Source of the DNA: Dokdonella sp.
GTDB taxonomy: Bacteria; Pseudomonadota; Gammaproteobacteria; Xanthomonadales; Rhodanobacteraceae
Direction: 5' to 3'
DNA length: 64,000 bases
Assembly (NCBI GenBank): GCA_024707225.1
Contig: JANQAE010000001.1
Span: forward strand, 1,488,001 to 1,552,000
Shown here: in pieces, positions 32,528 to 52,936 of the stretch
Position numbering within the stretch: position 1 is the stretch's first letter
Layout of the letters: each line of letters begins with the position of its first letter
Notes under the pieces: generated by a model
Told to the model about the DNA's origin: nothing
What the model saw: only the letters and a program-made list of their open reading frames with translations
The model's database searches: none
Translations under genes and position numbers: made by a program

Positions 32528-32549
32528 GGGGCTATCGTCTCCACCGCAC

Positions 32550-34652: not shown

Positions 34653-34653
34653 G

Positions 34654-37636: not shown

Positions 37637-37651
37637 GACGATCGAGGTGCG

Positions 37652-38215: not shown

Positions 38216-38234
38216 GACCGCAGGCGACGGGCGG

Positions 38235-40327: not shown

Positions 40328-40584
40328 CACCTCGCGGCCTTGATCGAGCCGCCGCCCGGCAGCGCGAACACGTACAGTCCGCCGTGCCGCACGGGATGTG
40401 GATGGCCGTCTGAATCGACGATCAATGCCTTGGCGCTGCCTGTATCGAGCACGGCCAGCATCACCGGACACCGGAGCGATCCGAGGTGCAGATGCGGGAT
40501 CCAGCCCTGCGCGGTCAGGGTGCCGCCGTGCGCGCCGTCGGTGCGGCCGGCAACGGCGCGGTATCGTCCTCGCTCTCGCTTCAT
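40324..40584 (-). CDS. Small phage protein of unknown function
   Basis: 86 residues from ATG 40584, overlapped by 4 nt on both sides. A basic N-terminus (KRERGRYRAVAG) is followed by beta segments (MLAVLDTGSAKALIVDSDGHPHPVRHGGLYVFAL). Not recognised. Part of the leftward early operon between the regulator and the methyltransferase. Confidence 0.55.
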   Translation of the reverse strand: MKRERGRYRAVAGRTDGAHGGTLTAQGWIPHLHLGSLRCPVMLAVLDTGSAKALIVDSDGHPHPVRHGGLYVFALPGGGSIKAARW

Positions 40585-40973
40585 CGGGCGCCCACCTTCG
40601 CGGCGAGCTGCTCCATGCGCGCGACCAGGCCGGCCTGTGCGGCGACCGATTCGTTGAACACGCGCTGCAGCTTCGCGAATTCGTCTTCGGGCTCGACCGG
40701 CACCGGCGCGGCGTAGCCGGCATCGCGCATTTCGTAGGCGGCCAGGATATGGATGCCGCGCTCGCGCGCCGCGCGGCGGATGTAGGCGAGCTGCGTCGGC
40801 TGCAGCGTCTCGCGCTCGTTCGGATTGCAGCAGTCGGACAGCCAGCGGCCGGCGGCCTGGGCGTCTTTGTCGGGCCGGAGCGCGACGCCGACGGTCTTGT
40901 AGCCGCCGAGCGCTTTGACGGTCTGCACGATCGCGTCGAAGTAGTCCTCGACCGCCAATTCGTACTCAGGCAT
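40581..40973 (-). CDS. Phage regulatory protein, possibly CII/CP76-like
   Basis: 130 residues from ATG 40973. The core GGYKTVGVALRPDKDAQAAGRWLSDCCNPNERETLQPTQLAYIRRAARERG has the length and layout of phage CII-type regulators (CP76 family): a helix-turn-helix, an N-P motif, then a second helical pair. The C-terminus is a coiled coil (FNESVAAQAGLVARMEQLAAKV) that could multimerise it. It lies two genes after Cro, as expected for cII. DNA-binding role is inferred. Confidence 0.55.
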   Translation of the reverse strand: MPEYELAVEDYFDAIVQTVKALGGYKTVGVALRPDKDAQAAGRWLSDCCNPNERETLQPTQLAYIRRAARERGIHILAAYEMRDAGYAAPVPVEPEDEFAKLQRVFNESVAAQAGLVARMEQLAAKVGAR

Positions 40974-41187
40974 TGCGCTTCTCCCAGTGCCAGAACCGCT
41001 CGACGAAGCTCTCCACCGTCGCGGGATTCGCCGGGCCGGTCGCCAGCAACTGCCCGGTTCTGGACTCAATACGCAGTCGCCGCGACTTCTCCGTGATGCG
41101 CACGCCCAGCGCCTTGCCTGCTCGGACGATGAATCCGTCCGTGTCCAGCTCGGCGCCATAGGCGCTCAATGCCGTGACCCAGGTCAT
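40966..41187 (-). CDS. Small phage protein in the Cro operon
   Basis: 73 residues from ATG 41187, overlapping the next gene by 8 nt. A compact alpha/beta protein (DTDGFIVRAGKALGVRITEKSRRLRIES, PATVESFVERFWHWEK). Function is not recognised. Confidence 0.55.
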   Translation of the reverse strand: MTWVTALSAYGAELDTDGFIVRAGKALGVRITEKSRRLRIESRTGQLLATGPANPATVESFVERFWHWEKRNA

Positions 41188-41222
41188 GCCGATACCTCGG
41201 CGCCGCGCCGGGCTTCAGGCCG

Positions 41223-41265
41223 CTTGTCCGACACGCTCCGACGCTGTCGGACAGCGTCGGACAAG
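41223..41265. promoter_or_regulatory. Nested inverted repeats with TGTCCG half-sites
   Basis: An outer perfect 10-bp inverted repeat (41223-41232 with 41256-41265) encloses an inner palindrome with 11-bp arms and a 1-nt centre (41238-41260). The sequence contains TGTCCG at 41225-41230 and CGGACA at 41248-41253 and 41258-41263, the half-sites of the palindromes at 37591-37636. It lies in the 263-bp gap between cro and the next leftward gene. A regulator site or an RNA structure are both possible. Confidence 0.55.
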
Positions 41266-41450
41266 CTCACGAGGGCAAAATTTTTTGCCATGGACACCTC
41301 GCGATGGATCGAAGAAAAGACCGCCCGCCAATCACATGGCGGGCGGCAAATGCGCGCCTGTGGTCAGTAAGCGCGGAGAGGGAGGCGTGGCTCAGTCGGG
41401 CGAGGCTCGGCGGCGCGGCCATAGCGTCGAAGTGCACGAGGGTCATGCCG

Positions 41451-41684
41451 TCAGGCAACCTGCTTCTGCGCCTGCGGCGGATCGCCGAAGACATCAGGGC
41501 GGAGGTCGTAGCGAGTGACAAGGCCAGATGTCGCGCGCTCGATGGCCGCACACCTTTCTGCCGGCACTTTGCCGCGAACAATCCAGCCAGAAATGGATGG
41601 CGAGCGGATGCCGATCATCCTCGCAAGGCCGGCTTGACTCCCCACCACGTCGATGGCCCTCGCAAGGGCTGAACTTGGTTCCAT
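41451..41684 (-). CDS. Cro/YdaS-type repressor
   Basis: 77 residues from ATG 41684. It contains a Cro/YdaS helix-turn-helix (LARAIDVVGSQAGLARMIGIRSPSISGWIVRGKVPAERCAAIERATSG). Divergent from the CI-like gene, with 80 bp between them that carry TTAGC-N5-GCTAA-type sites. No Shine-Dalgarno is visible and one operator ends 7 nt from the ATG, so the message may be nearly leaderless. It presumably turns down the lysogenic promoter after induction. Confidence 0.85.
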   Translation of the reverse strand: MEPSSALARAIDVVGSQAGLARMIGIRSPSISGWIVRGKVPAERCAAIERATSGLVTRYDLRPDVFGDPPQAQKQVA

Positions 41685-41690
41685 GACTTA

Positions 41691-41755
41691 TTAGCCCACA
41701 GCTAACCGATGTTTGCAAGTCCCCAGCTAACCGGCTCGCATTAGTGTTTGGCTAA
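41691..41755. promoter_or_regulatory. cI/cro operator region
   Basis: A perfect TTAGC-N5-GCTAA at 41691-41705 and a one-mismatch copy at 41741-41755 (left half TTAGT), with a GCTAA half-site at 41726-41730 between them. Read leftward, TTGCAA (41713-41718) with GCTAAT 17 nt later gives a plausible cro promoter overlapped by the first operator. The second ends 9 nt before the cI start. Confidence 0.72.
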
Positions 41756-41764
41756 CATCCGCCT

Positions 41765-42310
41765 ATGAACGTCGTGCAGATTCGCAATCGAAACCTGCTC
41801 TTGGTCCTGGATCGTTTAAGGAACAGGGGCATCAGCCGCCGCAAAGACCAGGAGAAGGTTCTTGGCGGGATCGGACAGTCGTTTTTGTCCCAGCTCAAGG
41901 GTGGGAAGCCGATGGGCGATGAGGTCGCGAGAAAAATTTCGCTAGCGCTCGGCTACGACGAGGGATGGATGGACCGCCCGCAGTGGGATGCGCCGCAGGC
42001 CGCTCCTGGTCCGGACATTCAGTTGGCTGGCGATGGCGCGGAGGAGGTCGACATCGCAGGAATGGTTCGACGGTTCGAATGGGACATCCTGTCCCTGCGA
42101 ACAGTCCTTAGCGCCGTGCTTGCCTCGCTGGCGCGCTCCACACCAGGCGCAGCTGCGGAAATTCACGACGCTTTGCGGCAGATTCCAGAGCACACGCACG
42201 GCTATCTCGCGGACGTGCTCCACACAATCCGTGAAGCGCAACGTGCGACGGCAGAGGAGCAGCTAGACGTTCTGCGTCGCGAAGCTTCTTCAGGCGGCAG
42301 AAAGCCCTGA
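41765..42310 (+). CDS. CI-like phage repressor without peptidase domain
   Basis: 181 residues from ATG 41765. The N-terminal 70 residues form a lambda-repressor-like helix-turn-helix (QEKVLGGIGQSFLSQLKGGKPMGDEVARKISLALGYDEGWMD). The rest is helical (WDILSLRTVLSAVLASLARS, ATAEEQLDVLRREAS) and lacks the S24 peptidase Ser/Lys dyad. RecA-triggered self-cleavage is thus not expected and induction must use another route. No clear Shine-Dalgarno; the transcript may start at or near the ATG as for lambda PRM. Confidence 0.82.
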   Translation: MNVVQIRNRNLLLVLDRLRNRGISRRKDQEKVLGGIGQSFLSQLKGGKPMGDEVARKISLALGYDEGWMDRPQWDAPQAAPGPDIQLAGDGAEEVDIAGMVRRFEWDILSLRTVLSAVLASLARSTPGAAAEIHDALRQIPEHTHGYLADVLHTIREAQRATAEEQLDVLRREASSGGRKP

Positions 42311-42459
42311 GAACGATGTCTTGCGTGGTGTCGGCCATGACCCCTCCTGTTTGTTTTTGGGATTAAAGTTCAGGATCATCGCAAGATACGAGAAGCGTTG
42401 ACGCCTATCGCGGCGCCACCGTCTTGCTTGACTGAGGAAGGAATCGATAAGGGAGGGGG

Positions 42460-43245
42460 ATGGAGACTATTCTGTTTATTTTGGTTGCGGCCGCGATAGC
42501 TGGCGTCCTTGTTGCGCGGGCGCATACCCGCGAGATGAAACGCTATGAAGATGCCGCCTCACATTTGACCGGTGGTGGCAGCGAAATGCTCTGGTGTGTG
42601 GGCAGCGACCAGAAGACTGGGCTGGCTCTTTCGCCAGATGCGAGCACGATCCACCTCCTCTCAGGCGCCAGCGAGGCAATCGAGGCAAGATCGGTGCCGT
42701 ACACAAGCCTGGTTGCTGTCGAGGTATTCGAGGACGGCGACACGATTACGAGCTCAGCTCGCGGTCGAACAGTTGGCGGGGCATTGATTGGAGGAATGCT
42801 GTTCGGCGGGGCTGGCGCCGTAGTCGGCGGACTATCAGGAAAGAAACGCTCCACGGAAACGGTCAGCACAATCGAACTGCGGGTCACCATCAACGATATC
42901 CGGTCACCGACATTTGACGTTCGATTTCTGAGCTCCGAGGTGAAGCGATCCGGAGCAGCTTACTCCAGCGCATCCAAAGCGGCGCGAGATTGGCAAGGAC
43001 GATTGGCAGTCCTGCTAAAGCGGGCGGAGACAGCCGACCCCAACCTTGCCGTGCGCGAAATCGTGACACGGCGTATCGCTCCCGTCATCGAGCCAAGGGC
43101 GTCGCGCCCTCAGAGATCGACGAAGCGGGTCTACTCTTCATCGCCGCAGAAGAGCCCCGCGGAACGCGAAGCGCTGATGGTCAAGGCGCGTCAGCTCGCG
43201 GCAGAGCGTGAATCGCGTGGAGCCGGCCACCTAGACGTCGATTAA
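42460..43245 (+). CDS. Membrane-anchored glycine-zipper protein, lysogenic cargo candidate
   Basis: 261 residues from ATG 42460 with GGGAGGGGG upstream. N-terminal hydrophobic anchor (ILFILVAAAIAGVLVA), a beta-rich soluble part (LLSGASEAIEARSVPYTSLVAVEVFEDG), and a glycine-zipper hairpin (GGALIGGMLFGGAGAVVGGLSG, about residues 105-127). The C-terminus is basic. It lies downstream of cI and upstream of the repressed early promoter, so it is probably expressed in lysogens. Composition is visibly less GC-rich than its neighbours, suggesting recent acquisition. A superinfection or host-fitness role is possible but not shown. Confidence 0.6.
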   Translation: METILFILVAAAIAGVLVARAHTREMKRYEDAASHLTGGGSEMLWCVGSDQKTGLALSPDASTIHLLSGASEAIEARSVPYTSLVAVEVFEDGDTITSSARGRTVGGALIGGMLFGGAGAVVGGLSGKKRSTETVSTIELRVTINDIRSPTFDVRFLSSEVKRSGAAYSSASKAARDWQGRLAVLLKRAETADPNLAVREIVTRRIAPVIEPRASRPQRSTKRVYSSSPQKSPAEREALMVKARQLAAERESRGAGHLDVD

Positions 43246-43291
43246 TCAGCGGGCGTGACGCCGCAAGCCCTATGGGCTCCCGCTAACTTTA

Positions 43292-43333
43292 TTAGCTTAT
43301 AGCTATTGACATTCGTTAGCTGCGTGCTAATCT
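43292..43333 (+). promoter_or_regulatory. Rightward early promoter with CI-type operators
   Basis: TTGACA at 43306-43311 and TAATCT at 43328-43333 with a 16-bp spacer. A perfect TTAGC-N5-GCTAA lies between and over them (43316-43330), and a one-mismatch copy lies just upstream (43292-43306). The arrangement predicts direct repression, in lysogens, of everything from 43371 through the DGR to the integrase. Confidence 0.78.
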
Positions 43334-43370
43334 TCCTTCGCGCCCACCCCGGGCAAGGAGGAACAGCACC

Positions 43371-43688
43371 GTGTCAGCCGCCACCGCACCGCTTGCTGCG
43401 CCCAATGCCAGCCTTTCGATCGACGTCGCCGATGGCCTGACGCTGCTCGTCCGCACCATGGGTGGCGGCGAAGTCGCCGCGTCGCTGTTCGTCAAGTCTG
43501 AGCTTCGCCCCTCCCTGAGCTACGCAGTCGGCCCGGCCGACCGCGCGCGCGTGGACGAAGACGAGGATGAAGAAGATGGCCGCGGCGTGCTGTGGATCGG
43601 CCGCGCCGCTTTCGACGTGCCGCCCGGAGCCGTGTCCGCGCTGCGCGCCCTCCTTGATGCGGCCCGCTGCACCGGTGGTGCGGCATGA
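43371..43688 (+). CDS. First gene of the rightward early operon, unknown function
   Basis: 105 residues from GTG 43371 with AAGGAGG 9-10 nt upstream. Beta-rich N-terminal half (LSIDVADGLTLLVRTM), an acidic stretch (VDEDEDEEDG) and a helical end (GAVSALRALLDAARC). Not recognised. Confidence 0.65.
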   Translation: MSAATAPLAAPNASLSIDVADGLTLLVRTMGGGEVAASLFVKSELRPSLSYAVGPADRARVDEDEDEEDGRGVLWIGRAAFDVPPGAVSALRALLDAARCTGGAA

Positions 43689-43990
43689 GCGCGCAGAAGC
43701 CGGGGCATCCTCAGACAGACCTTTGGGGGCTCACGGAGCAGGACCACACCGACGCAATCGCGGAAGACGCGGCGCGCGCACTGGTCGGCGAAGTCGAACC
43801 GATCCCGCTGTACCTGATCGAGCAGTACTACGGAACCAGGGAAAACTTCATCGCGCGTTACTTGGCACAGGCCGAAGAGGACGAGGCTGCTGCGCTTGAC
43901 GAACGCGCACCTGAGGAGTGGCGCGCCGGGCGCAAGGCGAACGCCCTTCGCTGCCGAGGCGTCGTCCAGGCAATCGGCGGAGCGGCATGA
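43685..43990 (+). CDS. Early phage protein, unknown function
   Basis: 101 residues, ATGA overlap with the gene before. Mostly helical and acidic (LTEQDHTDAIAEDAARALVGEVEPIPLYLIEQYYGTRENF, YLAQAEEDEAAALDE). No family is recognised. Confidence 0.6.
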   Translation: MSAQKPGHPQTDLWGLTEQDHTDAIAEDAARALVGEVEPIPLYLIEQYYGTRENFIARYLAQAEEDEAAALDERAPEEWRAGRKANALRCRGVVQAIGGAA

Positions 43991-44472
43991 GCACCATGGC
44001 GCGCTTCCTCGCGAACCCGCCCGGCTGGCTCCTGCTGCTCGGCGCGGCGATCGCGCTCATCGGCTCGGTGCGCGTCTCACTCCATACCGGTGAGCCGCCG
44101 AAAGACTGCGGGCCGCAGGCGGAACAGACGCGCGACGGCATCGTAGCCGCCGGCGCTGCCGACGTCCTCAATGATGCCGTCTCGGATCAGCATGATCACC
44201 GTCGAGTCGGTCGGGTTGAGTACGCGCCGCTCGTTGCCGGGCTGCAGGAAGCCGAAGACGAGTCCGCGCGCCTCCTCGTCCAGCTGCAGGACGTAGGCGT
44301 CCCAGCGTCTGCGCTCCAGACGCCGCAGGCGTCGCCGATGGCGCCAGCGCCGAAAGCCGTCCCACCCGAACTTCACCAGCAACACCACGGCGGTCGCGAT
44401 GCCGCCGACATCCAAGCTGATTTCCATGTTCGCCCCTCGTCCTCGTGCGGCCCCTCGCCGCGCGCCGGCTGA
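43987..44472 (+). CDS. Small membrane protein, 3' part uncertain
   Basis: ATG 43987 overlaps the upstream stop (ATGA). The first 35 residues give a clear membrane segment (GWLLLLGAAIALIGSV). From about 44077 the frame reads antisense to the SieB-like gene and loses protein-like character, so the real product may be shorter, or a frame break may hide the stop. The coordinates describe the open frame; only the N-terminal part is well supported. Confidence 0.4.
   Translation: MSTMARFLANPPGWLLLLGAAIALIGSVRVSLHTGEPPKDCGPQAEQTRDGIVAAGAADVLNDAVSDQHDHRRVGRVEYAPLVAGLQEAEDESARLLVQLQDVGVPASALQTPQASPMAPAPKAVPPELHQQHHGGRDAADIQADFHVRPSSSCGPSPRAG
44077..44427 (-). CDS. SieB-like superinfection exclusion protein
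   Basis: 116 residues from ATG 44427, the only leftward gene inside the rightward operon. It begins with a hydrophobic segment (VGGIATAVVLLVKFGW) and a very basic stretch (RRWRHRRRLRRLERRRW). Then follows LDEEARGLVFGFL and RRVLNPTDSTVIMLIRDGIIEDVG, the layout of SieB-type exclusion proteins. Opposite orientation under its own promoter, as for sieB in lambdoid phages, fits expression in lysogens to block other phages. Confidence 0.55.
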   Translation of the reverse strand: MEISLDVGGIATAVVLLVKFGWDGFRRWRHRRRLRRLERRRWDAYVLQLDEEARGLVFGFLQPGNERRVLNPTDSTVIMLIRDGIIEDVGSAGGYDAVARLFRLRPAVFRRLTGME

Positions 44473-44498
44473 TTGTGCCACCAACCCAGGAGATCCCC

Positions 44499-45002
44499 AT
44501 GCAAGTCGCCGCACCCGCCGCACCCGCCGCACCCGCAATCCCCACCGCCTCGCCGGTCGCGCTTGACCAGCCGCCGCAGCGCGCACGCTTCACCAAGCTC
44601 GACGCCGACGGCCAGGCGCTGCCGGCAACCGCAACCGATTGGCGCTACGTTCGCGTCGACACCGGCGCCGTCCGCTTCGACATGCTCGCCGGCAACCTCG
44701 ACGATCAGCGCAAGACGCACAGTGAGGCCGCCCAGGCCTGCGCAGCGCTCGGCGAAGGTTGGCGCATGGCGACGCTCGACGAGCTCGAGGCGATCCGCGA
44801 CATCACACGCTTTTCGCCCGCGGTCGATCCGACGTTTTTCCCGGACATCCACCCGAATTTCTACTGGACGTCGTCGCCGGATGCCGAGGATCCGGACGAC
44901 TACGCGTGGGTCGTCCACTTCCGCAGCGGCAGCGTGGGCCTCCACCACCGCGACCACCGCGCGTTCGTCCGGGCGGTCCGTTCCGTCCCCGCCAGTCAGT
45001 GA
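44499..45002 (+). CDS. DGR target protein 1 (DUF1566/Lcl-like)
   Basis: 167 residues from ATG 44499 with AGGAG 8 nt upstream. An Ala/Pro-rich N-terminus is followed by a DUF1566-type domain (GEGWRMATLDELEAIRDITRFSPAVD, FFPDIHPNFYWTSSP), a C-type-lectin-like fold used by DGR targets. The last 43 residues are encoded by variable repeat VR1. Relative to the template it has 11 base changes, all at template adenines. No signal peptide or membrane segment is seen, so the mature protein is either cytoplasmic or carried on the virion. Its ligand is unknown. Confidence 0.85.
   Translation: MQVAAPAAPAAPAIPTASPVALDQPPQRARFTKLDADGQALPATATDWRYVRVDTGAVRFDMLAGNLDDQRKTHSEAAQACAALGEGWRMATLDELEAIRDITRFSPAVDPTFFPDIHPNFYWTSSPDAEDPDDYAWVVHFRSGSVGLHHRDHRAFVRAVRSVPASQ
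44869..45001 (+). repeat. DGR variable repeat VR1
   Basis: 133 nt aligning without gaps to the template at 49558-49690. Eleven differences, each at an adenine of the template, plus the C at the 3' end that all three VRs share against G in the template. The 3' 35 nt before that point are invariant. Confidence 0.95.
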
Positions 45003-45034
45003 TCGTCCCTCGCCCTTTTCCTTCGGAGCACACC

Positions 45035-45511
45035 ATGTCCGCTGCCGTTGCGCAGGCCGAGTCGTCGGCCGCCTCCACCCGCGTCATCCTCAAGCTCGAT
45101 TCCGCCGGCGAAATCCTGCCAGCCGACGCGACCTCCTGGTCCGCCGTTCGCGTCCTCGACGGATCGCTTCGCATCGACATCCTCACCGGCAACATCGGCG
45201 GCCGCTCGATGAGCCACCGCAAGGCGGTCGAGGCCTGCGCCAACATCGACGCCATCGGCTCGACCGATTGGCGCCTCTGGACGCCCGCCGAAGCGTTCGC
45301 GCTGGTCGACCACGCCCGCTTCAACCCGGCCGTCGACACCGCGCTGTTCCCCGACATCAAGCCGGACTGGTACTGGACGTCGTCGCCGGGTGCCGAGGAT
45401 CCGGACGGCTACGCGTGGATCGTCCACTTCCACTACGGCGACGTGTACCTCTACCACCGCGGCTACAACGCGTTCGTCCGGGCGGTCCGTTCCGTCCCCG
45501 CCAGTCAGTGA
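45035..45511 (+). CDS. DGR target protein 2 (DUF1566/Lcl-like)
   Basis: 158 residues from ATG 45035, 33 nt after target 1. The same architecture: an N-terminal strand region (VILKLDSAGEILPADATSW), the DUF1566 core (TDWRLWTPAEAFALVDHARFNPAVD, LFPDIKPDWYWTSSP) and a C-terminal variable segment. VR2 has nine changes from the template, all at adenines, and is rich in Tyr (HYGDVYLYHRGY), as often seen in ligand-binding DGR surfaces. No signal peptide. Confidence 0.85.
   Translation: MSAAVAQAESSAASTRVILKLDSAGEILPADATSWSAVRVLDGSLRIDILTGNIGGRSMSHRKAVEACANIDAIGSTDWRLWTPAEAFALVDHARFNPAVDTALFPDIKPDWYWTSSPGAEDPDGYAWIVHFHYGDVYLYHRGYNAFVRAVRSVPASQ
45378..45510 (+). repeat. DGR variable repeat VR2
   Basis: 133 nt, gap-free alignment to the template, with nine differences, all at template adenines (two Asp/Gly-type changes in the 5' part, seven in the core). 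Confidence 0.95.
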
Positions 45512-45539
45512 TTGCCCCTTTGCGCTCCTAGGAGATCCC

Positions 45540-45800
45540 ATGTCGGCACAGACCACACCCGCGCGGGCGACGCCGGACGCCACAACGGCGCAGATCAACC
45601 TCATCGTCGCGGACGCCTTCGCGAATGCGACTCCGCCGCGCAGCGCGGCCTATATCGAGGGCTTCCGCTGCGCGATTCGGCGCCGCCTGGTCGGCACGCG
45701 ACTGCCGGTGCCGTATCGGCTCGGCAGCGCCGAGGCTGATGCGTACTTCGCTGGCCGCGACGATGGGGACGAGCACCCGCTTGAGGTGCCCGCACTATGA
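45540..45800 (+). CDS. Early phage protein, unknown function
   Basis: 86 residues from ATG 45540 with AGGAG 7-8 nt upstream. The sequence INLIVADAFANATPPRSAAYIEGFRCAIRRRL resembles small phage proteins that are counted with restriction-alleviation or replication accessory genes, but no firm family can be named. It ends with an acidic tail. Confidence 0.6.
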   Translation: MSAQTTPARATPDATTAQINLIVADAFANATPPRSAAYIEGFRCAIRRRLVGTRLPVPYRLGSAEADAYFAGRDDGDEHPLEVPAL

Positions 45801-45949
45801 GCGCTCCCGACGGAATCGAGCGCCGCCGTGACTTCGGCGGCCATTTCCAGCACGACGTCAGCGCCAGCATGGCGCGCGCGCTCTCGGCCATCGTGCTGCT
45901 CGCTGGCGTGCTGTTCCTCGTCGCGGGCGGCCTGGAGTGCGCGCGATGA
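45797..45949 (+). CDS. 50-residue membrane protein
   Basis: ATG 45797 overlaps the previous stop (ATGA) and the stop overlaps the next start (ATGA). A charged N-terminus (GIERRRDFGGHF) is followed by one membrane segment (ALSAIVLLAGVLFLVAGGLE). Coupling on both sides supports that it is real. Confidence 0.6.
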   Translation: MSAPDGIERRRDFGGHFQHDVSASMARALSAIVLLAGVLFLVAGGLECAR

Positions 45950-46221
45950 GCGTCCGATCCGAGCTCCGCGCGAACGTCACCGACTGGACGCGCCCGATCG
46001 TCAAGCCTCCGATTACGGAGCTGTCGATCGCCAAGGCGGCCGGCGGGCTTAACCGGCCCTTGATCGACCGCGCGGCAGCGGCTTGCCGGCGCGCGGCCGG
46101 GCGCTGCCACACGGCCTCGCGCGAGGCGCTCATCGACTCGGCGGCCCTGGCATGGCGCGAAGACGCGGCCGAGCTCGAGGCGGCAGCCAAAATCTTGGAG
46201 AAGCTCAATGCACCCGAATGA
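45946..46221 (+). CDS. Early phage protein, unknown function
   Basis: 91 residues from ATG 45946. Helical and charged, with IVKPPITELSIAKAAGGLNRPLID and EDAAELEAAAKILEKLN. Overlaps both neighbours. Not recognised. Confidence 0.55.
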   Translation: MSVRSELRANVTDWTRPIVKPPITELSIAKAAGGLNRPLIDRAAAACRRAAGRCHTASREALIDSAALAWREDAAELEAAAKILEKLNAPE

Positions 46222-46528
46222 CGAACTCCCGCCATGCATCGGCGAGCGTTACCGCGACACGGCGCAGCAAATCACAGGCGTCATCGATCTTGACCGCGTG
46301 CGCGCCGCGCGAAGCCAGCACCGCGACACGATCGCCGCCGCAGTCTGGCCGCATGCCGAGCGCGTCGCGGCTTCGCCTGCGGAGATCGAGCGGGCACACG
46401 CCGCCGGTATCGCCGAACTGAATGCCGGTCGCAGCATCGCTTGGGCGGTGTCCCGCGCTCGGGCGGAGCTTCCGCGTTCCCGGCGCCGGCCGCGGCGATC
46501 GACCACACCTCCGCCGGCGGCGGGCTGA
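46208..46528 (+). CDS. Early phage protein, unknown function
   Basis: 106 residues from ATG 46208, overlapping the previous gene by 14 nt. Helical core (IGERYRDTAQQITGVIDLDRVRAARSQHRDTIAAAVWPHAERV) and a basic Arg/Pro-rich tail. Not recognised. Confidence 0.5.
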   Translation: MHPNDELPPCIGERYRDTAQQITGVIDLDRVRAARSQHRDTIAAAVWPHAERVAASPAEIERAHAAGIAELNAGRSIAWAVSRARAELPRSRRRPRRSTTPPPAAG

Positions 46529-46530
46529 CC

Positions 46531-46893
46531 ATGACGACCGAACTCCAGCGCGCAGCGCTCACCAGGGCGCGAGCCGGCAATTGGGATCTGGCCGATGCCA
46601 TCGAATTGCTGGCGCGCCAGCAGCAGGCGCGCGTGGATGGCGAGCGGCTGCATTACGCACTGCGCTCGCATCGGCTCGCCTGCTTCATCTACTCGACCGC
46701 CAAATGTGACTGCTGCATCGGGGTCGAGCGCGACGGCTGTTCCTACGCGGAAGCGGCGGACTGGTGGGCCATCGACATGCGGGGTGACCGCCTCGACGCC
46801 GATGACCCGACGGTCTCGGGTCAGACGTTCACCGTCGAGCAGGCACGCGCGATCGTGCAGGCCTTTGAGGAGGAACTCGCCGCATGCGCGTAA
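46531..46893 (+). CDS. Early phage protein with Cys-rich segment
   Basis: 120 residues from ATG 46531, directly after the previous stop. Contains IYSTAKCDCCIGVERDGCSY, which could bind a metal ion, then an acidic end (QAFEEELAACA). It overlaps the clamp gene by 10 nt. Not recognised. Confidence 0.55.
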   Translation: MTTELQRAALTRARAGNWDLADAIELLARQQQARVDGERLHYALRSHRLACFIYSTAKCDCCIGVERDGCSYAEAADWWAIDMRGDRLDADDPTVSGQTFTVEQARAIVQAFEEELAACA

Positions 46894-47996
46894 AGATCGA
46901 ATCCGGCGCCCTTGCGACCGCGCTGCGGTCCAGCGTGGCGGTGCGCAAATCACCCACGCCGATCTACAGCCATGTCCTGCTCGAGGCCGCAGGCGAATCA
47001 CTGCGCATCACCACGTCGGACTCCGAAGCGACGGTGACCGCGGTCGTGCCGTGCGTCGTCGAGCGCGAAGGGGCGATCTGTGCACCCGATGACCTACTCA
47101 AGGCCGCGATGATCGGCGGCGGCGCGGTCGCACTGACCGCGGACGAATCGCTAACGGTCCAGCGCGGGCGCAGCCGCGTGCGCATCTCGACGCTGCCAGC
47201 AGGCGACTATCCGCGCAACGAACAGCTCATCTGGACCGACATCGACGTGCCGGCCGAGCGGCTCGCGAAGGCGGTCGATGCGGTCGCGCACGCGGCGAAC
47301 CGGACGGATGCCAGGCTGTGGGCACAGTGCATCCTGTTGCGCAGCGGCTGCGTCGTCGCGACCGACGGCATGCGTATCGGTCGCGCCGAGATTCCGTACG
47401 AGGGGCCGGACCTGCTCGTCCCTGCGCGCAACCTCGGGCCGCTGCAGCGGCTGCTCGGCGAAGGAGCGCGCGTCCAGTTCGGGCGCCCCGCCGAAGGCCA
47501 GCCGCCGGCGGTCATCGCAGTGCAGGATGCCAGCGGCGACCGGGCCGAGGTGCGCCTGTTCGCGGTCGGATTTCCGGACGTGACCGCCGTGTTCCCTATC
47601 GGGGATCCGGCGTGCTCTTTCACGGTCGACCGCGAACGCCTGCAGCACGCGCTCGACCGCATGACGCCGTTCTGCACCATCACCAGCACCGTTGCCGGCA
47701 AGGCCCATTCGTACGCGGCCGGCGTCGTGCGCGCCGGCGCCGGACGCGTGCAGCTCGAGGCGGCGCGCAACGACAGCCTGGAGGATCTGACGCCGCTGAT
47801 CGAGGGCGAACCAACCGGCTCGGCGACGGCCGGCATTCGCGTCGAGCACCTCGGCGACGTCCTCGCCGCCGCCGACACGGCATTCGTACGCATTTCGCTT
47901 CACCCCGGCGTCGCCGGCGCCGCTGCCCGGTGGTACTGCGAGCCGATCGGCGATCAGCGCGGCGCGGACTACGTCCTCGTCCCCGTCCAGATTTGA
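46884..47996 (+). CDS. DNA polymerase sliding clamp (beta/DnaN) homologue
   Basis: 370 residues, the length of a bacterial beta clamp. Three-domain layout with recognisable DnaN signatures: ALATALRSSVAVRKSPTPIYSHVLLEA, the domain I end STLPAGDYP, domain II VPAERLAKAVDAVAHAANRTDARLW, the CVVATDGMRIGRAEI strand, and the terminal DYVLVPVQI that mirrors the YVIMPMRL of DnaN. A ring clamp carried by a phage of this size is uncommon. It may replace the host clamp, recruit a phage polymerase partner, or act as a decoy. No polymerase gene was found in the prophage. Confidence 0.75.
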   Translation: MRVKIESGALATALRSSVAVRKSPTPIYSHVLLEAAGESLRITTSDSEATVTAVVPCVVEREGAICAPDDLLKAAMIGGGAVALTADESLTVQRGRSRVRISTLPAGDYPRNEQLIWTDIDVPAERLAKAVDAVAHAANRTDARLWAQCILLRSGCVVATDGMRIGRAEIPYEGPDLLVPARNLGPLQRLLGEGARVQFGRPAEGQPPAVIAVQDASGDRAEVRLFAVGFPDVTAVFPIGDPACSFTVDRERLQHALDRMTPFCTITSTVAGKAHSYAAGVVRAGAGRVQLEAARNDSLEDLTPLIEGEPTGSATAGIRVEHLGDVLAAADTAFVRISLHPGVAGAAARWYCEPIGDQRGADYVLVPVQI

Positions 47997-48009
47997 CCCA
48001 GGAGACCTC

Positions 48010-48321
48010 GTGTCCAATCCCCCCGCCTCCGCAACAGACCTGCTCGTCGCTGCCTCCGACAGCATCGACCAGCGCGCACAGTCGCGAGACCTGCCCGCCG
48101 GTGAGCGCTCGATGGCCCGCGCTGTCGCCGCATTCAACGCGATCACCGGCCGCCAGCTCACCGAGCACGACGGCTGGCTGTTCATGACGCAGCTCAAGGC
48201 GGCGCGGGCGACGGCCGGCCGCCACAACGCGGACGACTACGTCGACGGCGCTGCTTACTTCGCGCTCGCCGGCGAGTGCGCCGGGCGCACCGCCACCCCG
48301 CCGGGAGCGCCCGATGCGTAA
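48010..48321 (+). CDS. DUF6378-like phage protein
   Basis: 103 residues from GTG 48010 with AGGAG 7 nt upstream. The core MARAVAAFNAITGRQLTEHDGWLFMTQLKAARATAGRHNADDYVDGAAYFALAGE follows a widespread small phage family (I recall DUF6378) often found near replication genes. Function is unknown. Confidence 0.7.
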   Translation: MSNPPASATDLLVAASDSIDQRAQSRDLPAGERSMARAVAAFNAITGRQLTEHDGWLFMTQLKAARATAGRHNADDYVDGAAYFALAGECAGRTATPPGAPDA

Positions 48322-48526
48322 GCACGACATCGTGATCCGCATGCGCGGCGCACGTTTTTCCGAATGTGACCCCGAGCGGGTCGCCGAACTGATCCGCAGC
48401 ACTGCCCGAATGATCGAGCGCCCCGGCGAGACGGTCACCTTCGGCGGCTGCAGCGGCAACGCCCTCCGGCTCCGCGTCCGTCGTAACGGTGGCGCCGCGC
48501 CCCAACCCCAGGAAGACCCCGCATGA
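48314..48526 (+). CDS. Small phage protein upstream of DGR target 3
   Basis: 70 residues from ATG 48314, overlapping its neighbours by 8 and 4 nt. Small alpha/beta protein (HDIVIRMRGARFSECDPERVAELIRSTARMI). Not recognised. Translational coupling to target 3 is likely. Confidence 0.55.
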   Translation: MRKHDIVIRMRGARFSECDPERVAELIRSTARMIERPGETVTFGGCSGNALRLRVRRNGGAAPQPQEDPA

Positions 48527-49035
48527 ACCTGAGCATCAACATCCGCTGCGCCGGCGACGTCATCATTTCGGCGCGACCCGATTCGCAAGTCAGCGATCTG
48601 CCGTCGCTGATCTCGGTGGCCGACGTGCCGATCCACACCACCAAGCCGAAGCCGTTCCGCCTCGCCGATGAGCTGGTCTGCGATCCGGCGCAGCGCCTGA
48701 TCTGGACGCCGCGCCCGATTGACGGCAAGCGCATGACGTGGGCCGAAGCGGACGCGGCCTGCAAGGCGCTGCGTCTCGGCGGCTTCTCCGATTGGCGGTT
48801 GCCGACGCGCGAAGAGCTGCAAGGCCTTGTCGACTACACGCGCTGCAAGCCCGCGATCGACACCGCCCTGTTTCCGGATACGCCGCCCGAAGCGTTCTGG
48901 ACGTCGTCGCCGGATGCCGAGGCTCCGGGCGACTGCGCGTGGTTCGTCGACTTCCACTACGGCAACGTGAACCTCCGCCGCCGCGACTACCACGCGTTCG
49001 TCCGGGCGGTCCGTTCCGTCCCCGCCAGTCAGTGA
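48523..49035 (+). CDS. DGR target protein 3 (DUF1566/Lcl-like), next to Avd and RT
   Basis: 170 residues from ATG 48523 (ATGA overlap). This is the most canonical DUF1566 of the three: KRMTWAEADAACKALRLGGFSDWRLPTREELQGLVDYTRCKPAID, FPDTPPEAFWTSSP, then the C-terminal variable segment. It differs from the template at 11 positions, all adenines. Targets next to avd-TR-RT are the usual DGR arrangement. No signal peptide is seen, and its N-terminal 50 residues differ from those of targets 1 and 2, so each target may attach to a different partner. Confidence 0.88.
   Translation: MNLSINIRCAGDVIISARPDSQVSDLPSLISVADVPIHTTKPKPFRLADELVCDPAQRLIWTPRPIDGKRMTWAEADAACKALRLGGFSDWRLPTREELQGLVDYTRCKPAIDTALFPDTPPEAFWTSSPDAEAPGDCAWFVDFHYGNVNLRRRDYHAFVRAVRSVPASQ
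48902..49034 (+). repeat. DGR variable repeat VR3
   Basis: 133 nt, gap-free to the template; 11 differences, all at template adenines, including three in two adjacent codons that turn N-H into R-R. The 3' invariant GC-rich stretch and the C-for-G difference are shared with VR1 and VR2 and mark the probable initiation-of-mutagenic-homing site. Confidence 0.95.
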
Positions 49036-49059
49036 TCGCCTTTTGACCCTTCGCCGCCC

Positions 49060-49503
49060 ATGAGCTACGCCGTCCCGCCCATCATTCGACTTTCCGAACG
49101 TCTGCTCGTCGACGTCGAGGAGGCCGTGAAAGTCTTCCCTCGCCGGCACAAGTACGTGTTCGGCTCGGACCTGCGGCGGGCGGCGATGAAGGTCGCGTTG
49201 CGCGCGCAACGCGCCTGGCGCAAGCCCAGGGATCCGGCGAAGCGGATCGCGAAGCTCGTGCGAGCGATCGACGATTTCAAGCTGCGTTTGCAGCTGGGGT
49301 CGGCGATCCGGGCCTTTGCAAGCTTCGGTCAGTTCGAGGCGCTCGCGCGCCTCGCCAAGGACATCGGCCGGCAAGCCGGCGGATGGATGCGACGCCACCA
49401 GCAGCACCCCAAGAGCCAGAATCGCGCGGCCGGAGCGCCGCCCGAGCGTGCTCAGACACTGAGTACCTGCGCCGCCTCACGCCACACCGGGGCCAACGCA
49501 TGA
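49060..49503 (+). CDS. avd: DGR accessory variability determinant (Avd)
   Basis: 147 residues from ATG 49060. The first 115 residues form a helical, strongly basic domain (LSERLLVDVEEAVKVFPRRHKYVFGSDLRRAAMKVAL, RIAKLVRAIDDFKLRLQLGSAIRAFASFGQFEAL) matching the four-helix Avd/bAvd family. Avd pentamers bind the RT and template RNA and are needed for cDNA synthesis in the Bordetella phage system. The last 30 residues are low-complexity. Its stop overlaps the RT start (ATGA). The gene order target-avd-TR-RT is the classical one. Confidence 0.88.
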   Translation: MSYAVPPIIRLSERLLVDVEEAVKVFPRRHKYVFGSDLRRAAMKVALRAQRAWRKPRDPAKRIAKLVRAIDDFKLRLQLGSAIRAFASFGQFEALARLAKDIGRQAGGWMRRHQQHPKSQNRAAGAPPERAQTLSTCAASRHTGANA

Positions 49504-50894
49504 CGACGCCACGCTACCCGCAGGGATGTTTGGCAGGGTCTCAAGCGCGCAGGGATGCGTCGTCGCCGGATGCCGAGGATCCGGACGACTACGCGTGGAT
49601 CGTCAACTTCCACAACGGCAACGTGAACCTCAACCACCGCGACAACAACGCGTTCGTCCGGGCGGTCCGTTCCGTCCCCGCCAGTGAGTGTCAGGGTGCC
49701 CAATGCAATGAGCCGGTCTCGTTCCGGAGCCTGCACGCCGCGTGGCGACGCGCGCGGCGGAAGAAGAAGCCGAGCAACGATCAGATGCGTTTCGAGACGC
49801 GCTGGATCGACAACCTGTTCGAGCTGCAAACGCGGCTGCGTGCCGGCACCTGGGCGCCGTCGCCGTCCACCTGCTTCATCGCTGATCGCCCCAAGGCACG
49901 CGAGATACACGCGCCCTCGTTCGCCGATCGTGTCGTGCACCACTGGCTGGTGCCGCACCTGGAAGCGATCTACGAGCGCATCTTCATCGCCGACAGCTAC
50001 AGCAACCGGCGCGGCAAAGGAACACTGGCCGCGGTGAAGCGCGTCCATGCCTTCGCGCGCCAGGTCAGGAGCGGCCAGGGTCGGGGCTGGTATCTGCAGC
50101 TCGACATCCACAACTTCTTCCCTTCGATCCATCGGCCCACGCTGTACGGGCTGCTCAGGAAGCGGATGCGGCGCGCTGGTCTTCCACTGCCGGTGCAGCG
50201 TTGCGTGCATGCGCTGCTGCGCCGGAGCGCGACCGAGACCGGCATCCGCTACGTGTGCACGCCCGCCGAGCGGGCCAAGGTGCCGCGCCACAAGCGGCTG
50301 GAGTCGGCGCGACCTGGCTGCGGCATCCCGATCGGTAATCTGTCGAGCCAATTTTTTGCGAACGTCTACCTCAACGAGCTCGATCAGTTCGTTAAGCACG
50401 AACTGAGGGCGCCGCGATATGCGCGCTACGTCGACGACTTCGTGCTGATCCACGAGAGCCGCGAGCAGCTGATCGAGTGGCTCGAGCGGATCACGACGTT
50501 CCTGGCAGAACGGCTGCACCTCCAGCTCAAACCGGATATCCGTCTTCGCCCACTGGACGACGGCATCGACTTCCTGGGCTACGTCGTGCGGCCGACGCAC
50601 CTACTGCCGCGACGCCGCGTGATTGCTCACGCGAACGCCGCCCTGGCGGCCTGGGAGCGCGAGCACGTCCACGGCGATCACCTGCGCGCGGCGCCGGCGG
50701 ATCTACGCGCGCTGCGCTCGACCTGGCAAAGCTACGCCGGCCACCTGCGGCACGCACGCACCCATCGATTGCAGCGACGCTTCCACCGCCGCTTTCCGTG
50801 GCTATCAGCAGCCGGCATGACCCGCCATTTCCGGCCCAGCTCGGAGCGCCGGATTCGCGCCATTCGCTGGCGTACGAGCGCGAGAAAGCCATGA
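49500..50894 (+). CDS. DGR reverse transcriptase
   Basis: 464 residues from ATG 49500 (ATGA overlap with avd). All RT motifs are present: SFRSLHAAWRRARRKK and NLFELQTRLRAGTW (N-terminal), QLDIHNFFPSIHRP (motif A), GIPIGNLSSQFFANVYLNEL (motif B, with the DGR-specific GxxxSQ), RYVDDFVLIHESREQL (motif C, YVDD), and LKPDIRLRPLDDGIDFLGYVV (motif E region). The first 63 residues after the start read through the template repeat in the same frame. Thus either the RT carries a template-encoded N-terminus or it starts at a non-ATG codon after 49690; the next ATG (49785) would cut into the conserved part. It copies template RNA with adenine errors into cDNA that replaces the VRs. Confidence 0.92.
   Translation: MTTPRYPQGCLAGSQARRDASSPDAEDPDDYAWIVNFHNGNVNLNHRDNNAFVRAVRSVPASECQGAQCNEPVSFRSLHAAWRRARRKKKPSNDQMRFETRWIDNLFELQTRLRAGTWAPSPSTCFIADRPKAREIHAPSFADRVVHHWLVPHLEAIYERIFIADSYSNRRGKGTLAAVKRVHAFARQVRSGQGRGWYLQLDIHNFFPSIHRPTLYGLLRKRMRRAGLPLPVQRCVHALLRRSATETGIRYVCTPAERAKVPRHKRLESARPGCGIPIGNLSSQFFANVYLNELDQFVKHELRAPRYARYVDDFVLIHESREQLIEWLERITTFLAERLHLQLKPDIRLRPLDDGIDFLGYVVRPTHLLPRRRVIAHANAALAAWEREHVHGDHLRAAPADLRALRSTWQSYAGHLRHARTHRLQRRFHRRFPWLSAAGMTRHFRPSSERRIRAIRWRTSARKP
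49558..49690 (+). repeat. DGR template repeat (TR)
   Basis: 133 nt between the Avd stop and the conserved RT part. It has seven AAC codons in phase with the targets (VNFHNGNVNLNHRDNN), the codon that adenine mutagenesis can turn into the widest set of amino acids without creating stops. The 3' end reads GCCAGTGAGTG, whereas all VRs read GCCAGTCAGTG; this single difference before the shared AGTG tract is the expected TR-type versus VR-type homing signal. Confidence 0.95.
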
Positions 50895-50939
50895 CAGCCT
50901 CAATCCAGACCACCAGCAACCAGAGGAGGGCGTTCACCC

Positions 50940-51329
50940 GTGAGCACTGACTTGACTAAGTTCTACAGCACCAACGACGAGGACTTCATCTACCACGACG
51001 TGGGCGACGTTCTCGACGCCCTGGCCGCCGACGGCGAACTTGAGGCCGGCAGGATCTACTTCGAAGGCGACTTCACGAGGATCGCGCACAGCTACGTCTT
51101 GAACGCGGCCGAAATTCTCGAGCGTGCAGATGAAATCCTTTTCGAGGAGGTCGGGGAAACCGCCGATGAGCAGTTCACCAGCGCGACTCAGGCATCCAAG
51201 GATGAGTTGCAGGCTCTGCTGGTCGCGTGGGCCGAAAAATGGATTGGCCCCGTCAACGGATTCATGGTCGTCGGAAAAACGCGTGAGCGCCGCGTGACCG
51301 AGGAAGATGTGAAGGAGTACGCGCAGTGA
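50940..51329 (+). CDS. Acidic phage protein, unknown function
   Basis: 129 residues from GTG 50940 with AGGAGG about 10 nt upstream. Acidic and helical (NDEDFIYHDVGDVLDALAADGELEAG, ADEILFEEVGETADEQF). A 19-residue frame (50891-50950) between RT and this gene, with an ATGA overlap to RT, may be a leader peptide. Not recognised. Confidence 0.6.
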   Translation: MSTDLTKFYSTNDEDFIYHDVGDVLDALAADGELEAGRIYFEGDFTRIAHSYVLNAAEILERADEILFEEVGETADEQFTSATQASKDELQALLVAWAEKWIGPVNGFMVVGKTRERRVTEEDVKEYAQ

Positions 51330-51562
51330 GCACGCTCACCGAACTGGTGCGCAGCGCTGCCGCGCTCGCCCAGGGCGGTGCGATCGCGTGCGCATCCAAC
51401 GGCCACCTTTGGGAATCGGATGGCGGGCGAGCGTGCCCGAAGGGCAGCGCAAACTGCTCGCAGACGGTGTATCTCTGCGAGCGCTGTGGAGCCTACGACT
51501 ACGGCGATCCGGGTGGGCCCGCGCACGAGGAGTGCTCGCTTACCTGTGCATTGAGGAGGTAA
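51326..51562 (+). CDS. Small zinc-ribbon-like phage protein
   Basis: 78 residues from GTG 51326 (4-nt overlap). Six Cys residues in the second half (ACPKGSANCSQTVYLCERCGAYDYG, HEECSLTC) could form a zinc ribbon. Similar small proteins occur near phage excision genes, but no function is assigned. Confidence 0.6.
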   Translation: MSTLTELVRSAAALAQGGAIACASNGHLWESDGGRACPKGSANCSQTVYLCERCGAYDYGDPGGPAHEECSLTCALRR

Positions 51563-51566
51563 CTCG

Positions 51567-51887
51567 ATGGATGCTGCCGAGAACCTTCCCCGCCTGATTT
51601 CTGAGGCCGACGCCGCCGAGTACCTCGGCGTCTCTCGCATCACGATGCGCCGTCTACGGGCGGCGCGGAAGATCGCCTACATCATGGTGGGCGTCGCCGC
51701 GCGCTACACCGAGCGCCAACTGCTGGACTACCTGGATCAACAGACATGCCCACCCGATTCCGACTCGGCCCCTACTGGATTGAAAAGCGGAAAGGATCGA
51801 CGGTCTGGTACCGCGCGTGGCGGGACGGCACAGGATGCAAGCAGCGCGCTACGCTCGGCACAGGAGATTTTGAACAGGCAAAGGTGA
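51567..51887 (+). CDS. AlpA/MerR-like DNA-binding protein, candidate excisionase
   Basis: 106 residues from ATG 51567. The N-terminal 60 residues hold a winged helix-turn-helix of the excisionase/AlpA type (ISEADAAEYLGVSRITMRRLRAARKIAYIMVG). The C-terminal 45 residues overlap the integrase gene by 142 nt and are low-complexity, so the functional protein may be only the N-terminal part. Position directly before int suggests Xis function. Confidence 0.72.
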   Translation: MDAAENLPRLISEADAAEYLGVSRITMRRLRAARKIAYIMVGVAARYTERQLLDYLDQQTCPPDSDSAPTGLKSGKDRRSGTARGGTAQDASSALRSAQEILNRQR

Positions 51888-52936
51888 GGCTCGCGGAATG
51901 GTTCGTGCAGAACGCAACCATCCGCGACCAGCAGCCGAGCGATGTCCTGCTCGACACCATCCTGACGCGATACCTGGGGCAGCACGGTGCGGAGCTCGCC
52001 AGCAAGGACACGGCCAAGCGCGCCGTCGCCCTCTGGCGCGCGTGGTGGAGGCCATCCGACACCGTGGCCGACGTGACGATCGATCGCCAGGAACAATTCC
52101 TGGCTTCGCTGCAGGAGAGCTACAGCGAGAGCTATGCGCGCCGTGTGCTCGGCGTGGGTAAGGCCGCCCTCAACCGTTCATGGAAGCGCGGCGAGATCAC
52201 GCAGGTGCCCTTCGTCGCGCTGCCGCCGGGCGAGGAGTCGTTCCCGCACTACGCCAGCCGGGCGCAGATCGTCGCGCTGCTCAACACGCCGATGGCGGAG
52301 CACGCTTGGGCCTATTGCCTGGTCCGGCTGTGCACGGGTTGCCGTGGAGACGCTGCGCTCGATCTGCAGGCGCCCCAGGTCGACCGGCAATCGAACTACG
52401 TGCGGCTGAACCCGCCGGGTCGCCGGCAGACCAGAAAGTACCGGCCGACGGTGCCGCTCGTACGCCCCCTGGCGGCCTACCTGGACGAGGCGCAGCCGCA
52501 AGGCTACCTGGTCAACTGGCACGGCAAGCAGATCAAGTCCATCAAGACGACGTGGCGCAAGCTCCGCGTCGCGGCAGGGCTGCCCTCCTGGTTCGCGCCC
52601 CGCGTGCTACGCCACACCGTCGCGACGTGGCTCCGGCAACGCGGCGTACCGGCCTGGGATGTCTCCGGCCAGATCGGGCACCGCGCGGCAGGCACGACGG
52701 ACGGCTACGCGAAGTTCGACCCCTCTTACCTCGGCGAGGCCAGAAAGGCGATCGAGGCGTTCCTGCTGGATCTGTCGAAAGACGTCCCGAGGCTCCGGCC
52801 GCTATGTGGGGTCAGTGCGGGGTCACTTGCGACACAAACAGAAACGGCGCGAACCCGTGAGAGCCGCGCCGTTGCTGCGTTTCAGGTGGTGGGCGGTACA
52901 GGGATCGAACCTGTGACCCCTACCATGTCAAGGTAG
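51746..52936 (+). CDS. int: Tyrosine recombinase (phage integrase)
   Basis: 396 residues from ATG 51746. N-terminal arm-binding region, SAM-like core-binding part (about residues 65-150) and catalytic domain with the first Arg (LCTGCRGDAALDL), APRVLRHTVATWL (second Arg, but Arg in place of the usual His three residues before it), QIGHRAAGTTDGYAKF (His and the probable Tyr nucleophile). The last codons run into att[15 protein letters not shown] is encoded by the antisense of tRNA-Val, and the stop TAG is made by host sequence. In the circular phage the frame continues as SRKIKENKD before a stop. It drives site-specific integration at tRNA-Val. Confidence 0.93.
   Translation: MPTRFRLGPYWIEKRKGSTVWYRAWRDGTGCKQRATLGTGDFEQAKVRLAEWFVQNATIRDQQPSDVLLDTILTRYLGQHGAELASKDTAKRAVALWRAWWRPSDTVADVTIDRQEQFLASLQESYSESYARRVLGVGKAALNRSWKRGEITQVPFVALPPGEESFPHYASRAQIVALLNTPMAEHAWAYCLVRLCTGCRGDAALDLQAPQVDRQSNYVRLNPPGRRQTRKYRPTVPLVRPLAAYLDEAQPQGYLVNWHGKQIKSIKTTWRKLRVAAGLPSWFAPRVLRHTVATWLRQRGVPAWDVSGQIGHRAAGTTDGYAKFDPSYLGEARKAIEAFLLDLSKDVPRLRPLCGVSAGSLATQTETARTRESRAVAAFQVVGGTGIEPVTPTMSR
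52808..52825. promoter_or_regulatory. Candidate integrase arm-type sites, right
   Basis: GGGGTCA at 52808-52814 and 52819-52825, 11 bp apart, mirroring the left pair at 14694-14711. They lie inside the 3' end of int. Confidence 0.45.
52840..52873 (-). terminator. Phage-supplied terminator for tRNA-Val
   Basis: A 9-bp core stem AACGGCGCG/CGCGCCGTT (52843-52851 with 52865-52873) followed leftward by a T-rich tail. It resembles the displaced host terminator at 14517-14548 and restores termination of the tRNA after integration. Confidence 0.65.
52886..52934. other. attR: 49-bp core at the intact tRNA-Val
   Basis: Identical to attL. On this side the phage-borne 3' half completes the tRNA, so integration does not destroy the gene. 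Confidence 0.93.

Follow-up and report, generated by a model that had tools for sequence, protein, structure and literature searches.

The stretch of DNA considered here, hereafter the window, comprises 64,000 nucleotides of a Dokdonella sp. genome (assembly GCA_024707225.1, contig JANQAE010000001.1, positions 1,488,001 to 1,552,000) and carries a prophage with a diversity-generating retroelement (DGR). The element consists of three target genes, each with a variable repeat (VR), an avd gene, one template repeat (TR) and a reverse transcriptase (RT) gene, and is confirmed as a complete DGR of a temperate phage with one TR and three targets (Table 1). The initial annotation, made from the letters alone, had named Avd, a 133-nt TR, a DGR-type RT and three DUF1566-like targets with VRs, and every one of these parts was found. 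It had also treated the TR as a stretch separate from the RT, whereas the RT frame is open through the TR from an ATG at 49500. This embedding, and a structured RNA domain designated R1 that lies directly 5′ of the TR, are the subject of this report.

Table 1. Features of the DGR and its prophage, in positions of the window.
Feature	Position	Strand	Basis or remark
Prophage	14560..52934		Between 49-bp direct repeats 14560-14608 and 52886-52934; shared words, tRNA, structural genes
Target 1 (T1), Lcl_C domain	44499..45002	+	Pfam PF07603, E 7e-20; VR1 44869-45001 at 3′ end
Target 2 (T2), Lcl_C domain	45035..45511	+	Pfam PF07603, E 3e-21; VR2 45378-45510
Target 3 (T3), Lcl_C domain	48523..49035	+	Pfam PF07603, E 7e-30; VR3 48902-49034
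avd	49060..49503	+	phrog_3206 'Avd protein of DGR', E 5e-16; stop overlaps RT start as ATGA
Structured RNA domain R1	49407..49565	+	cmsearch 140.7 bits; final model positions extend into TR
R1 hairpin P1	49413-49453	+	Columns of alignment A1
P0 helix, 5′ strand GACACT	49455..49460	+	Covariation; complement to TR 3′ flank
R1 closing stem P2	49466-49473/49545-49553	+	Columns of alignment A1
R1 stem P3	49474-49478/49489-49493	+	Columns of alignment A1
RT, 464 aa from ATG 49500	49500..50894	+	Leader, TR-encoded segment, RT core from about 49716
R1 stem P4	49502-49518/49524-49540	+	Columns of alignment A1
TR	49558..49690	+	In VR frame, inside RT reading frame
IMH*-like GTGAGT	49684..49689	+	Reads GTCAGT in VRs
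P0 helix, 3′ strand AGTGTC	49687..49692	+	At TR 3′ boundary
Tyrosine integrase adjoining DGR	51746..52936	+	PF00589, E 2e-10; phrog_1

The targets are small proteins of 158 to 170 amino acids with a single Lcl_C/DUF1566 domain, presumably of C-type-lectin-like fold, and the VRs sit at the 3′ ends of all three genes. The differing N-termini ascribed to them initially are not borne out: all three proteins are of one kind with a single domain, and T1 and T2 are both 47% identical to T3. The sole sequence match of the target alignment to a solved structure at E ≤0.01 was HbP1 (8q4e, E 6e-6). Two targets lie far upstream and one adjoins the TR, as first described, with TR-to-VR offsets of -4689, -4180 and -656. 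Each VR is 133 nt long and 91-92% identical to the TR, and the next-best match to the TR anywhere in the 4.37-Mb genome is a 32-nt stretch with an E value of 0.01. Across the TR core (49558-49685; 128 nt, of which 25 are A), mismatches to VR1, VR2 and VR3 number 11, 9 and 11, and 31 of 31 fall at TR adenines (hypergeometric P = 2e-9, 1e-7 and 2e-9, respectively). At least one VR has changed at 21 of the 25 adenine sites, and the three VRs differ from each other. The single non-adenine difference, common to VR1-VR3, is a change of G49686 to C at the 3′ boundary.

By PHROGs and by solved-structure match the RT is closest to DGR RTs, in agreement with its first assignment. It matches phrog_1423 (E 3e-101, query from 49632), its best solved match is 8ub7 ('Reverse transcriptase', 328 aa; E 1e-52), which we take to be the BPP-1 enzyme, and group II intron RTs follow at E 2e-19; the RT search matched 116 phage records, BPP-1 included. 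The Pfam bAvd match of Avd lies below the curated cut-off (26.5 versus 40 bits). Relatives of the RT were collected from viral contigs (80 of 153 kept) and genomes (80 of 328 kept), and a script that looks for adenine-biased repeats recovered TR/VR sets in 138 of 171 loci, three of which are pieces of the window's own locus. The 89 loci referred to below as close, the window included, have an RT core at least 54% identical to that of the window, a TR and an avd gene; near-duplicates were kept, and the cut-off was chosen after the data had been seen. In a tree of 140 RTs, inferred by a quick method with support from the Shimodaira-Hasegawa-like approximate likelihood ratio test (SH-aLRT) only and with no non-DGR outgroup, 65 rows with an embedded TR form one group (SH-aLRT 100), with eight further rows that belong to no group inside it. 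The embedded-TR lineage occurs in genomes of Lysobacteraceae, Rhodanobacteraceae and Steroidobacteraceae and in many viral contigs.

The RT frame of the window runs from ATG 49500, in an ATGA (49500-49503) that overlaps the avd stop codon, through the TR in the frame of the targets and into the RT core. The same frame is open through the TR in 89 of 89 close loci, the other two frames being open in 3 and 0, and the ATGA overlap is present in 88. The distance from ATG to core is a multiple of three in 88 of 89 loci; 23 different lengths occur, of which 22 are divisible by three. Since the targets hold the TR itself to multiples of three, this distance alone is weak evidence, and the flanks were therefore scored separately in 85 of the 88 ATGA loci (L074, L038 and L090 were skipped, the core motif not being found). 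The segment between TR and core keeps one phase across nine lengths in 82 of these 85; in the other three (L026, L032 and L040) it is out of phase and an opposite shift upstream restores the frame, so that ATG and core are in frame in 85 of 85. The frame counts cover loci with a detected TR and the RT on the plus strand as fetched, and thus omit truncated loci (for example L014, L037, L049, L087, L091 and L109) as well as L010 and L011. The leader that precedes the TR has the form MTxPRYPxGCxAGSQV. Among 18 distinct class A leaders, variation at the three codon positions is 0.072, 0.034 and 0.192, hence mostly at third positions, and among 45 class B leaders the third-position excess is weak (0.178, 0.228 and 0.291; pairs at least 70% identical).

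These observations have to be set against the view that the window holds an ordinary DGR of the BPP-1 type, in which the TR would be functionally noncoding, the RT would start at an internal GTG or TTG, either within the TR or beyond it, and the open upstream frame would be incidental. Such starts can be pointed to: the window has an in-frame GTG at 49623 within the TR, and 47 of the 89 close loci have a possible GTG, TTG or ATG between TR end and RT core, so that a later RT start could serve in those loci. Several further points count against reading from the upstream ATG. L080 has GTGA in place of ATGA; L090 is the sole out-of-frame locus; L079 and L085, which belong to the clade, fall below the 54% cut-off and hence outside the frame counts; and L079, L080 and L085 lack the ATG normally found between P3 and P4, their nearest in-frame starts coming later, still before the TR. 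The TR-encoded peptide itself is also probably dispensable, to judge from the three compensated loci, where the TR is read in a frame other than that of the targets. On the other side, the window and 41 other close loci lack any start codon from the TR end to the RT core, variation among class A leaders falls mostly on third codon positions (weakly so in class B), and the ATGA overlap in 88 of 89 loci together with the three compensated frameshifts points to selection on reading from the upstream ATG. We regard the ordinary BPP-1 arrangement as improbable.

The region in which this reading would begin is also predicted to be structured. R1 spans the final ninety-odd bases of avd, the RT ATG and the RT leader, and stops 4 nt before the TR; the RT AUG follows directly on P3, and its G is the first base of P4. 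The alignment holds 54 dereplicated sequences and was folded by RNAalifold with RIBOSUM scoring. The resulting structure has 42 pairs, with 91.6% of 2268 cells paired as compared with 77.7% in shuffled alignments and 33-45% in slid versions, a share that is biased upward since the structure was derived from the same sequences. Double changes occur at 26 pairs, and the covariation score is 0.385 versus 0.138 for shuffles (0 of 500 as high) and 0.05-0.08 for slid versions; under default RNAalifold settings only 25 pairs are recovered, 21 of them with double changes, which tells against the fuller fold. One helix of the first structure, helix 2, is likely spurious (81.5% paired, no double change) and was dropped when the helix P0 described below was added, though it is still present in the structure given to the covariance model. 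No consensus fold was found by RNAalifold 3′ of the TR in 51 sequences.

The R1 covariance model, of 153 positions, has a single match in the window at E values up to 10. Outside its training set it matches distant loci (L106, L105, L128, L110 and L139) with E values of 1e-10 to 3e-8, each match ending at most 17 nt from the TR start, and weaker matches, such as those in L153 and L149, stop some 100 nt short of the detected TR. Among 233 genomes of the host family, R1 (E ≤1e-4) was found in 10 and the RT (E ≤1e-60) in the identical 10, and among 369 genomes drawn from the host class R1 was found in the window's own genome only. A search of Rfam 15 over window positions 44000-51500, at E values up to 5, gave four chance-level matches, none to an RT or DGR family, of which one (mir-306, opposite strand, E 1.8) overlaps the R1 region. 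At gathering scores no Rfam RT or DGR family matched L029, L042, L020 or L010, and none matched in 11 distant loci with R1, a set that does not include L105. No description of R1 or P0 was found in the literature, which is weak evidence of absence as few subscription papers were covered.

The linker between P1 and P2 is left unpaired in R1, and its consensus GNxACU is complementary to AGUyNC at the 3′ boundary of the TR; the helix so formed is designated P0. At its variable pair the 89 close loci have A-T in 45, C-G in 24, T-A in 12, T-G in 7 and T-C in 1. In the 54 aligned rows 99.7% of 324 cells are paired, a share reached by none of 500 shuffles, and double changes are seen at 3 of the 6 pairs, two of these through one sequence each. 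Seven loci from host-family genomes formed a held-out set (two more, L196 and L198, are the same as rows used in training), and all seven keep the RT frame open across the TR. The exact P0 complement is present in L197, L199, L200, L203 and L204, which are 67-81% identical (ungapped) to their nearest training row. By eye, L202 reads GACTCT/AGAGTC, with both bases changed at a pair that is invariant (A-U) in all 54 training rows, and L201 pairs with one U-G. In 12 more distant loci with a TR, a 6-7-nt complement including ACT lies near the TR end in seven (scored without a chance control), the complement is just 5 nt in four, and there is none in one. A comparison of independent pairs on the tree tempers this evidence: for C/G five pairs change in the same way, none in the other and one shows no difference (median p 0.06), for A/T there are two pairs only (2 of 2), and for T/C five pairs average 3.5 of 5 (median p 0.25). 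The independent pairs are thus few, and never in the wrong direction.

Adjoining P0 is the GTGAGT of the TR, which reads GTCAGT in 175 of the 182 VRs of the close loci and has C at its third base in 179. To judge from its sequence and position this is an IMH*/IMH-like mark (initiation of mutagenic homing, IMH).

The reading that we prefer, with a probability of about 0.8, is that of a phage DGR in which the RT reads through the TR, the template RNA is the 5′ end of the RT mRNA, and R1 and P0 bracket the TR. Comparison of relatives supports its DGR components, its adenine specificity, the in-frame embedding, the RNA fold and P0. Under this model adenine-mutated copies of the one TR would overwrite the 3′ ends of the three Lcl_C genes, and in the embedded-TR lineage a single stretch would be both the template RNA and the beginning of the RT mRNA. 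R1, which lies immediately 5′ of the TR and is formed by the end of avd and the leader of the RT, would be joined by P0 to the TR 3′ end, leaving the TR as a loop bracketed by P2 and P0, and translation of the RT would begin at the AUG inside R1 and continue through the TR. R1 and P0 may take the role that the 3′ spacer RNA has in BPP-1, recruiting RT-Avd and setting the start of complementary DNA (cDNA) synthesis beside GTGAGT. To translate the RT, a ribosome has to open P4, P2, the TR and P0; translation should therefore compete with use of the RNA as template, and any one RNA would serve either the one or the other.

The RNA might instead be a cis-regulator of RT translation, an attenuator placed at the start codon, that has no part in the template particle. 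Its content would suit such a role, as it includes both the RT start codon and the avd stop codon. Less easily accommodated is the closeness of the fold to the template, given that the last stem ends 4 nt from the TR, that the linker pairs with the TR 3′ flank through P0, that R1 is found close to TR starts in more distant loci too, and that the Rfam family RT-15 occupies the same place in other DGR phages. As an exclusive explanation regulation seems unlikely, although the regulatory and template-particle roles of R1 may coexist.

BPP-1 (AY029185, L172) offers the closest standard of comparison. It shares with the window the order of target, avd, TR and RT and the RT family, and its TR/VR differences are likewise adenine-specific (17 of 17). 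In BPP-1 the TR begins directly after bbp7, which we take to be avd, and ends before brt (annotated start 3896), whereas in the window the TR lies inside the RT frame. Its structured RNA (Rfam RF03022, L172 3756-3888) is 3′ of the TR and R1 is 5′ of it, and the place taken by the spacer RNA in BPP-1 is in the window given over to RT coding, which follows at once after the TR (core within about 30 nt). No match to RF03022 was found in window positions 44000-51500 (Rfam, E up to 5). The BPP-1 spacer RNA, which follows the TR, is reported to recruit bRT-Avd and to prime cDNA at IMH* from one of its internal adenines (PMC12875486), and Rfam likewise puts its Phage_DGR RNA on that side of the TR.

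A closer likeness in layout is found in Rfam RF03018 (RT-15; Burkholderia phage Magia, Pseudomonas phage Cruim01, Shewanella phage QDWS), a structured RNA that, like R1, lies between avd and the TR. In the RT-15 loci L173-L175 an RT frame that begins at an ATG within the RNA stays open across the TR, as in the window; in these loci the TR lies in a frame other than that of the targets, and the RTs fall in clades separate from that of the window. The two RNAs do not recognize each other by search: RF03018 has no match in window positions 44000-51500 (Rfam, E up to 5) or, at gathering scores, in L029, L042, L020 and L010, and R1 has none in L173-L175 (E up to 1). RT-15 has a conserved unpaired AUCUG, whose complement CAGAU occurs at the TR 3′ end in five of six loci, L165 lacking it. 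The complement extends over 7, 7 and 9 nt in L159, L171 and L174 and, by eye, over 5 nt in L173 and L175; the search that gave it also gave other 6-7-nt complements elsewhere and is weak on its own. As a separate matter, the Rfam model of RT-15 may lack this long-range AUCUG/CAGAU helix.

Roux et al. (PMC8144416) place the TR in intergenic sequence in most DGRs. A class with the TR overlapping the RT open reading frame is already known from annotation, to which the lineage of the window adds read-through from one conserved start, the RNA fold and P0. What appears to be new here, going by sequence comparison, is a TR within the start of the RT gene that is held there by an RNA fold; the kind of DGR and the three targets were known already. 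Beyond the lineage itself, we lean towards a DGR class in which the template is translated inside the RT gene, a 5′ scaffold with P0 replaces the 3′ spacer of BPP-1 in a template particle that is thus rearranged, competition between ribosome and template acts as feedback, and the plan extends to distant DGRs and to RT-15.

The initial annotation had regarded three targets as unusual. Of the 89 close loci, 11 have a single VR, 65 have two, 12 have three and one has four; these are merged counts (the third VR of L033 being an overlap artefact) of same-strand VRs within the fetched flanks, and hence lower bounds. L029 has a layout near that of the window (offsets -4686, -4203 and -646), and three VRs occur in five of the ten host-family genomes that carry the DGR. 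DGRs with three and four VRs were in print by 2012 (PMC3521204) and many with multiple VRs by 2019 (PMC6642488); the latter paper includes a Stenotrophomonas sp. SKA14 DGR with six VRs in different open reading frames and two TRs, where the window has one TR. Three targets are therefore ordinary, and the number was rejected as a novelty. Stenotrophomonas also carries embedded-TR relatives (L096 and L102). Separately, L055 and more distant loci (for example L105, L106, L108, L110 and L111) have one target about 1.8-2.7 kb downstream of the TR, past the start of the RT core.

The adenine-specific variation among relatives that the initial annotation had called for was found in the sister contigs L022 and L024, whose TRs are identical, whose RTs are 99.8% identical in nucleotides and whose target flanks are 100% and 97.6% identical. 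Between the two contigs one VR has changed at 13 of 22 TR-adenine sites and the other at 19 of 22, as against 0 of 89 remaining sites in either VR, and their lineage is diversifying by adenine-specific change. This was the sole informative contig pair under the thresholds used; in 14 further VR comparisons neither the VRs nor their flanks showed any difference. The viral-contig and genome searches, which may omit near records, found no close sister of the prophage in the window, so diversification is seen in relatives and not in the window's own copy, a point that tells against the model for this prophage. That gap would also fit a decayed DGR in a dead prophage whose parts no longer work, as would the finding of no stem-loop (arm of at least 5, loop of 3-8) within 60 nt 3′ of VR1-VR3. 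Decay, however, would blur both the restriction of core mismatches to adenines and the differences among the three VRs, and the RT, Avd and targets are all open reading frames; we therefore hold it to be quite doubtful.

The setting agrees with the temperate phage first proposed, with attachment (att) repeats at a tRNA-Val gene, an integrase and structural genes. The prophage is 38.4 kb in size, the right 49-bp att repeat lies inside tRNA-Val (52887-52961), and the window has a GC content of 69%. Terminase, portal, capsid, major tail and tape-measure genes are on the minus strand, from which the phage would be siphovirus-like, and the DGR is on the plus strand, distant from the tail genes, between the integrase and a repressor-like gene that has a PHROGs match and none in Pfam. 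Between targets 2 and 3 there is a DNA polymerase III beta-clamp-like gene (46884-47996; PF00712, E 2e-8; phrog_947, E 8e-42), which has no homologue among the relatives' matches listed. Elsewhere in the prophage, imperfect 12-nt tandem repeats at 38629-38805 encode an MSAP/MSSP-type repeat within a minus-strand open reading frame (38235-39173), and the head-decoration family phrog_20658 is matched by both a 1197-aa protein (16899-20489) and the major tail protein (24774-25796).

Recruitment of the RT by DGR RNA and the start of cDNA synthesis are understood for the most part through BPP-1, whose structured RNA lies 3′ of the TR. The lineage described here would have a different plan, strongly backed by comparison, in which the scaffold is 5′, the TR is bracketed by a covarying helix and the RT start codon lies within the scaffold. 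The R1 covariance model can find such elements without recourse to protein sequence, and exact base pairs are available. If the model holds, the RT of this lineage would be a gene whose own coding sequence is the mutagenic template for other genes.

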